From assembly GCA_028874365.1 (NCBI GenBank), contig JAPPJZ010000078.1, positions 1 to 64,000 on the forward strand: a DNA stretch of 64,000 nucleotides. Direction: 5' to 3'. This document shows, piece by piece, positions 13,068 through 18,141 of this stretch. How positions within the stretch are numbered: the first letter of the stretch is position 1; the number at the start of each line of letters is the position of its first letter. Below the pieces are notes generated by a model. That model worked only from the letters and a program-made list of their open reading frames with translations. It had not been told where the DNA came from and ran no database searches. Position numbers and translations under genes: made by a program. The stretch comes from Chloroflexota bacterium. Its GTDB lineage: Bacteria; Chloroflexota; Dehalococcoidia; Bin125.

Positions 13068-13081
13068 GTGTACGTATGTTC
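13068..13081. promoter_or_regulatory. Half-conserved copy of the palindrome found upstream of the radical SAM gene
   Basis: The sequence GTGTACGTATGTTC shares the 10-mer ACGTATGTTC with the palindrome at 17257-17266, but its other arm (GTGTAC) is degenerate. On the minus strand it lies between a TACAAT box and the ribosome binding site of the small ORF, where a repressor could act. A single degenerate match may be chance. Confidence 0.25.
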
Positions 13082-17252: not shown

Positions 17253-17266
17253 GAACACGTATGTTC
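17253..17266. promoter_or_regulatory. Palindromic operator-like site abutting a promoter
   Basis: GAACACGTATGTTC has perfect 5-bp outer arms (GAACA/TGTTC) around CGTA. Gram-positive LexA boxes have GAAC and GTTC arms with a 4-base spacer; here the spacer between those arms is 6. It abuts the -35 box of the following promoter, the usual place for a repressor. The regulator is unknown. Confidence 0.45.
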
Positions 17267-17295
17267 TTGACTGGGATATAGCACATGTGTACTCT
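17267..17295 (+). promoter_or_regulatory. Sigma70-type promoter of the radical SAM gene
   Basis: TTGACT (17267-17272) and TACTCT (17290-17295) are separated by exactly 17 bases. The -10 box ends 6 bases before the ATG at 17302, so transcription should start at or next to the initiation codon. No Shine-Dalgarno is present, consistent with a leaderless transcript. Confidence 0.65.
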
Positions 17296-17301
17296 GTTGG
17301 C

Positions 17302-18141
17302 ATGTTGCAGCTATCCCTCTTCGACCCGAATCCCACGCCTGCCCGACCTCGGACGCAGGGCACAGCCGATGTGATCTACGCCGATGCGTCGGCCGTTCTT
17401 GCTCGGCCGACGGGGCGGCTTGCCGACCTGGATTTTGTGATTAACCCGTACCAGGGCTGCACGTTTGCCTGCACGTACTGTTACGCGGCCTTCTTTGTGG
17501 CGGAGGAGGAGCAGCGTGAGCGCTGGGGGCAGTGGGTTCGGGTGAAGACGAATGCGATCGCCAAGTTGCGCAACTCTCGGCAGAACCTGCACGGCCGGAC
17601 CGTGCTGATGAGCAGTGCGACCGACCCGTATCAGCCGATCGAAGCGAAACTGGAACTGACTCGGTCATTGCTGCCGATCCTCGCTCAGCGTCGAGCGCAC
17701 CTGGCCGTGCTCACGCGCAGCCCGCTGGTGACGCGCGACATCGACCTGTTCGAGAGCTTCGAGCACTTCAATGCCACGATGAGCATCACGACGGACTCGG
17801 ATGAGGTGCGGAAACGGTTCGAACCGCAATGCGCGAGCATCGATCGCCGTTTCGAGGCGCTGCAGCAACTCGCGGATGCCGGGTTCCGGACGCGGATCAA
17901 CGTCTCGCCGCTGCTTCCACTGCACGATGCTCGGTCGTTTGCCGAGCGGATCCTTGAGACCGGGGTGGCGCGCGTGCATATCAACACGTTTCACGAGACA
18001 TCGGGCCCGTTTGCCTCAGGTACGCGTCAGCCGGCGCTGGCGATCGCGAGGGAGATGGGTTGGACGGAGGAGCGGCGCGAGCGGGTGTTGGCGGAACTGC
18101 GCGGCTATCTGAACGAAGGAGGCCGGAGGCTGGCTGCTTGA
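17302..18141 (+). CDS. SPL-like radical SAM protein (Rv2578c-type) with N-terminal clamp-binding-like motif
   Basis: A 279-residue radical SAM protein. The 4Fe-4S ligands are Cys53-x3-Cys57-x2-Cys60 in GCTFACTYCYA, after the family-typical VINPYQGC; DPYQPIE and TRSPLVTRDID further on are also characteristic of the spore-photoproduct-lyase-like Rv2578c group. Residues 3-7 are QLSLF, a textbook match to the bacterial beta-clamp-binding pentapeptide, and they lie in an extended, proline-rich N-terminus (NPTPARPRT) suited to docking. The palindrome and promoter upstream suggest regulated, leaderless expression. The family's reaction is not established; DNA repair is a reasonable inference. The C-terminus (LNEGGRRLAA) looks complete. 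Confidence 0.82.
   Translation: MLQLSLFDPNPTPARPRTQGTADVIYADASAVLARPTGRLADLDFVINPYQGCTFACTYCYAAFFVAEEEQRERWGQWVRVKTNAIAKLRNSRQNLHGRTVLMSSATDPYQPIEAKLELTRSLLPILAQRRAHLAVLTRSPLVTRDIDLFESFEHFNATMSITTDSDEVRKRFEPQCASIDRRFEALQQLADAGFRTRINVSPLLPLHDARSFAERILETGVARVHINTFHETSGPFASGTRQPALAIAREMGWTEERRERVLAELRGYLNEGGRRLAA

Follow-up and report, generated by a model that had tools for sequence, protein, structure and literature searches.

The SPL-like radical SAM gene described here, from the 64,000-nucleotide stretch of Chloroflexota DNA that was analysed (the window), probably encodes a LexA-repressed, clamp-tethered enzyme that acts on DNA at damaged replication forks. This reading is given a probability of roughly 0.6. 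Its clamp and SOS parts alone, with the substrate left aside, are held with clearly greater confidence, and least certain are the nature of the substrate as a DNA lesion and the kind of lesion. The gene would belong to the LexA regulon of the organism. In the absence of damage, LexA on a box overlapping the -10 element would block the leaderless promoter, perhaps also from a second box before the -35 element. Upon DNA damage, LexA would be cleaved and the radical SAM enzyme, with its SPL-like barrel, would be made. Its disordered N-terminal QLSLF would then dock on the sliding clamp DnaN, in the pocket that binds peptides. This docking would bring the enzyme to forks that are stalled or engaged in translesion synthesis, and there its 5'-deoxyadenosyl radical would act on damaged DNA. 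The initial annotation had proposed a damage-inducible, replication-coupled enzyme. Both properties gain strong comparative support, but the operator had been named in the wrong register. The features concerned are listed in Table 1.

Table 1. Features of the SPL-like locus in the window
Feature	Position	Strand	Basis
Palindrome GAACACGTATGTTC	17253..17266		
Second LexA-like box ACAC-GTAT-GTTC, inside the palindrome, just upstream of the -35	17255..17266	+	matrix 9.7
Promoter, leaderless layout: -35 TTGACT (17267-17272), 17-nt spacer, -10 TACTCT (17290-17295), six bases, ATG (17302)	17267..17295	+	sequence; recurs in most orthologues
LexA-type box GCAC-ATGT-GTAC over spacer and -10, candidate conserved operator	17281..17292	+	matrix 9.6
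SPL-like radical SAM gene, 279 aa plus stop	17302..18141	+	ORF/translation, PF04055, AF2 model
QLSLF, codons 3-7, N-terminal beta-clamp-binding-type pentapeptide in disordered tail	17308..17322	+	
Cys53-x3-Cys57-x2-Cys60, [4Fe-4S]/SAM site; Cys60 between Tyr59 and Tyr61	17458..17481	+	

The radical SAM protein and its predicted fold

The gene lies in a genome of 3.12 Mb in 82 contigs, and its neighbouring genes are not repair genes. The product scores 53.5 bits against the Pfam radical SAM domain PF04055 (cut-off 29.5), and this score above the gathering threshold, together with the CxxxCxxC motif, places it in the radical SAM superfamily. The cluster cysteines Cys53, Cys57 and Cys60 are invariant in 108 of 108 relatives, and Tyr59 and Tyr61 are kept in 97% and 92% of them, respectively. 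Lys82, the DPYQPxE core, Arg183 and Pro203 are also near-invariant. The AlphaFold2 model of the protein has a mean pLDDT of 88.5; residues 1-10, with a mean of 46, are modelled as disordered. Foldseek searches with this model returned SPL structures first (E 2e-9; next 1.5e-5), and VIA-align gave SPL a Z of 18.3 over 252 residues, the next family having a Z of 15.2. By both methods, the modelled fold is closest to that of SPL. The SPL-like radical SAM domain with its three cysteines, which had been recognized in the initial annotation, is confirmed by sequence, Pfam and fold match.

The catalytic fourth cysteine of SPL is Cys140/141, according to the literature and to mutant structures. Beyond the cluster, no cysteine is conserved in more than 27% of the 108 aligned relatives, and Cys177 is the sole non-cluster cysteine of the window protein. 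Since no fourth cysteine is conserved across the relatives, the SPL catalytic cysteine has no conserved counterpart, which means that the substrate may be neither spore photoproduct nor even DNA. An enzyme with a real clamp tag and real SOS control could therefore modify a protein or an RNA at the fork, such as a polymerase, the clamp loader or tRNA. Among the radical SAM barrels that reach fairly high Z values are enzymes that modify proteins or RNA, such as PFL-AE, RlmN and MiaB, which also fits such a role. However, SPL stands out clearly as the closest structure, with a match that spans almost all of the model, and clamp tags and LexA control typify enzymes acting on DNA. Modification of a protein or RNA is considered unlikely. 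Action on DNA at damaged forks is the preferred reading, and the window protein may repair lesions there.

A LexA-type box over the -10 element

The -35 and -10 elements and their leaderless layout, as originally proposed, were upheld by the promoter footprint, in which the spacing to the ATG is conserved and the -10 stands 6-7 nt before it in most orthologues. The palindrome abutting the -35 had been read as a damage-response operator that should recur upstream of SOS genes. This expectation failed, as GAACA-N4-TGTTC has a single site, the one in this promoter, in the whole 3.12 Mb genome. Among 13 sibling promoters, the palindrome is kept, and partly so, in one (L005). As a regulon operator, it is ruled out on both grounds. 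The palindrome is present and contains the LexA-like box listed in Table 1, itself partly conserved in L005 only. Its register is wrong, with six bases between its GAAC and GTTC, and its site is the less conserved one. According to the footprint, the conserved element of the 14 orthologue promoters is not the palindrome but AGAACATRTGTAC over the spacer and -10. This box has four bases between its half-sites, lies 26 bp downstream and overlaps the -10.

The SOS box of the genus is G[A/T/C]AC-N4-GTTC, as taken from its lexA, recA and imuB promoters. It occurs as G[A/T]AC-N4-GTTC upstream of lexA in 13 of 14 readable genomes and as GCAC-N4-GTTC upstream of recA in all 15 genomes. The imuB-like promoter of the window's genome carries GAACTCCCGTTC. 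A symmetric matrix was built solely from 29 lexA and recA boxes. Applied to the 14 SPL-like promoters, it gave a mean best score of 8.9, against -1.8 for shuffled sequences, and in 13 of them its best site lay 23-26 nt upstream of the ATG. The fourteenth is that of the window, where two sites score alike (9.7 and 9.6). In four of the promoters (L007, L011, L013 and L015), the box is weak and scores no higher than shuffled sequences, and in the window it is imperfect, with GCAC and GTAC half-sites. By the lexA/recA matrix, the window promoter carries the box of its lineage at the conserved position, as a LexA regulon operator should. A bare count of exact GAAC-N4-GTTC sites was rejected as a definition of the regulon because the 37 genomic sites, compared with 26 in the control, are mostly intragenic; the lexA and recA footprints do define it.

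The conserved 12-mer could also be the site of a repressor other than LexA. The near-perfect GAACATATGTAC is also present before many small genes of HTH type in this genus and could mark another regulon, and the lexA and recA sites have GTTC as their right half, whereas the SPL-like promoters mostly have GTAC. The overlap of the right half-site with the -10 would account for its TAC instead of TTC. In addition, the site is chosen in 13 of the 14 promoters by a matrix that contains no boxes other than those of lexA and recA, and exact LexA boxes stand at relatives in other phyla (see below). Control by another repressor is considered distinctly unlikely, and repression by LexA is retained as the probable mode of control.

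Similar boxes were found elsewhere. An GAACATACGTAC box lies at 13070-13081 on the minus strand, just upstream of a small unassigned ORF starting at about 13043 on the same strand. In this genus, boxes close to GAACATACGTAC stand before small HTH-type genes and before genes for proteins of about 106 amino acids, with several copies in each genome. Exact GAACATNTGTWC sites number 27 in 15 genus genomes against 2 in the control, many of them before small unassigned genes, a count that also fits a repressor other than LexA. From their sequence context, these boxes may possibly be SOS-linked or form a separate regulon of mobile-like genes. An GAACATGTGTAC box stands 37 nt upstream of a ComM/YifB-like gene (L163, G004:C28:406899).

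The terminal clamp-type motif

The N-terminal QLSLF of the window protein, which starts M-L-QLSLF, had been noted at the outset as a clamp-binding pentapeptide to be sought in homologues. The tag occupies residues 3-7 and was found in all 15 genus and family orthologues, as QLSLF, QMSLF, QLALF or QLSLL. All 15 N-termini have the form (M)(L)Q[LM][SA]L[FL]DxNP. The motif codons drift synonymously among the orthologues while the residues are kept, and the linker after the motif is variable, which indicates that selection acts on the peptide. The protein thus has what marks a beta-clamp client, a conserved QL[SD]LF-type motif in an accessible segment (15/15 orthologues, disordered tail). DnaN is present in the same genome, where the motif reads QLSFF in DinB and QLVLF in the ImuB-like protein. 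From sequence, the QLSLF tip is predicted to dock on DnaN, as the tags of DinB and ImuB presumably do. The hexapeptide QLSLPL of Hda was shown by experiment to be a clamp ligand (PMC3836487).

The tag was also counted in the wider family. In 108 members, most of which had been gathered with peptide patterns excluding the tag, the pentapeptide class occurs in 19 N-tails (15 of them those of the orthologues) and 19 C-tails, with shuffled means of 0.46 and 0.7, respectively, and in none of the 108 protein bodies. The C-tagged proteins include PA0069-like ones of Proteobacteria, Verrucomicrobiota, Balneolota and others. In a tree built without the tails, a starred branch separates the N-tagged from the C-tagged proteins. 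A search of Chloroflexota found the C-type in 96 of 301 genomes. Of 30 further Chloroflexota C-type proteins, obtained with a query that was itself C-terminally tagged and with scores taken over the whole protein, 21 have a penta- or hexapeptide in their last 40 residues (0.39 by shuffling) and none has one in its body; the hexapeptide pattern was added only after these tails had been inspected, and the pentapeptide alone is found in 4 of the 30. Most of the other tails are near-matches, such as QLALTNL and QLPLWEG. Among N-type relatives, the tag is degraded in L035-L037 and L039 and absent from L019, L020 and L043. L208, from another family of the same class, has the N-terminus MTGEQLDLF and a perfect box, GAACGGACGTTC, just upstream. 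A paralogue in the same genome, 49% identical and SPL-like (L128, G000:C11:17332-18160), directly follows a CaiB-like reading frame and has neither clamp tag nor LexA box.

Because distant relatives in other phyla are tagged at the opposite end, the pairing seen in this gene appears to be genuine and not a product of chance. A motif of five residues is short, and the terminal QLSLF could be a conserved tail with another role, in folding, with another partner or as translation start context, whose match to clamp motifs is a coincidence. Only a slim chance is given to this possibility, since a separate branch carries the same motif class at the other end of the protein and no protein body contains it, synonymous codon variation speaks against a role at the nucleotide level, and clamp clients of the same genome use the same motif class. 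The clamp-tethered reading is preferred. Among the five archaeal loci, the C-terminus QLSLKAFL of L077 resembles a PCNA-binding PIP box and the other four have no such end; a PIP box in archaeal relatives is not claimed.

Related families and LexA boxes in other lineages

The window protein belongs to none of the named families compared, as its NCBIfam scores are far below their cut-offs: 124.2 bits of 360 for NF033668 (PA0069 family), 113 of 410 for TIGR04470 (radical SAM mobile pair protein B), 91.9 of 430 for NF038135 (Rv2578c family) and 26.4 of 400 for the SPL model TIGR04070. The second SPL model, PF20903, is also unmatched (16.1 of 27). NF038135 and TIGR04470 proteins share a related radical SAM core with it. 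SPL (structures 4fhc-4fhg) shares the CxxxCxxC flanked by tyrosines and is the best fold match; in contrast, the window protein is only about 15% identical, is shorter, lacks the conserved catalytic cysteine and carries a clamp tag and an SOS box. An ordinary SPL-type photoproduct lyase without fork coupling, although it would account for the SPL fold and for both tyrosines beside the third cluster cysteine, is very improbable in view of the low SPL model scores, the lack of a conserved fourth cysteine and the conserved clamp tag.

The PA0069 proteins resemble the window protein in their SPL-like core with DPYQPxE, terminal clamp-type motif and upstream LexA box. Their motif is C-terminal, whereas that of the window protein is N-terminal, and starred branches separate the two. 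The ImuB/DnaE2 SOS mutasome and DinB of the same genome carry the same kind of clamp tag, and the regulon of ImuB is of the same type as that of the window gene; they are polymerases or polymerase-like, whereas the window protein is a radical enzyme. The ImuB-like gene (L249, G000:C21:48910-49302) has a LexA box in its promoter and encodes QLVLF near its C-terminus. The reading frame after it looks like the beginning of a polymerase of the DnaE2 type, and by sequence the two constitute an SOS mutasome in this lineage.

In other lineages, GTTC-N7-GTTC was found upstream of all five alphaproteobacterial relatives (0.09 expected), CTGT-N8-ACAG upstream of two of four beta/gamma relatives (0.006 expected) and GAAC-N4-GTTC upstream of 12 of 30 Chloroflexota C-type loci (0.16 expected). 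These are the LexA motifs of the respective classes; the proteobacterial counts come from few loci. The box of L105 is less certain, as it lies inside a terminator-like hairpin. Across the family, tag and box are associated (23/49 vs 8/77, Fisher p 5e-6, kinship ignored), and a tree-aware test of tag against box had few informative pairs. Control of splB homologues by LexA was predicted for alpha- and betaproteobacteria (PMC3323433), and SplB-like proteins have been tied to SOS gene neighbourhoods (PMC3765255). The PA0069-family proteins are probably the splB homologues of the former prediction. No description of clamp binding or tethering of SPL-like radical SAM enzymes was found in the literature searched, the coverage of which was incomplete. 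As far as that literature goes, the clamp tag at either protein end is new, as are, from sequence, the apparent occurrence of LexA-type control in Chloroflexota as well, the N-tagged branch among them, and the apparent coupling of tag and LexA-type control in one gene.

SPL-like radical SAM proteins occur in many bacteria that do not form spores and tend to be called photolyases by similarity. The conserved tag and SOS control point to the replication fork as their workplace. It can be proposed, tentatively and at slightly less than even odds, that across bacteria they make up one general class of radical repair enzymes, induced by the SOS response and tethered to the clamp. Members of this class would have been recruited to the replication machinery on more than one occasion, through gain of a tag at one or the other terminus, and the lesion that they process at stalled forks would not be spore photoproduct. 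The tag offers a direct biochemical handle on their function, through peptide-clamp assays and tag-dead mutants. On a Dadabacteria contig (L104, 2689-3370), an SRAP (YedK-like) reading frame comes after a C-type gene.
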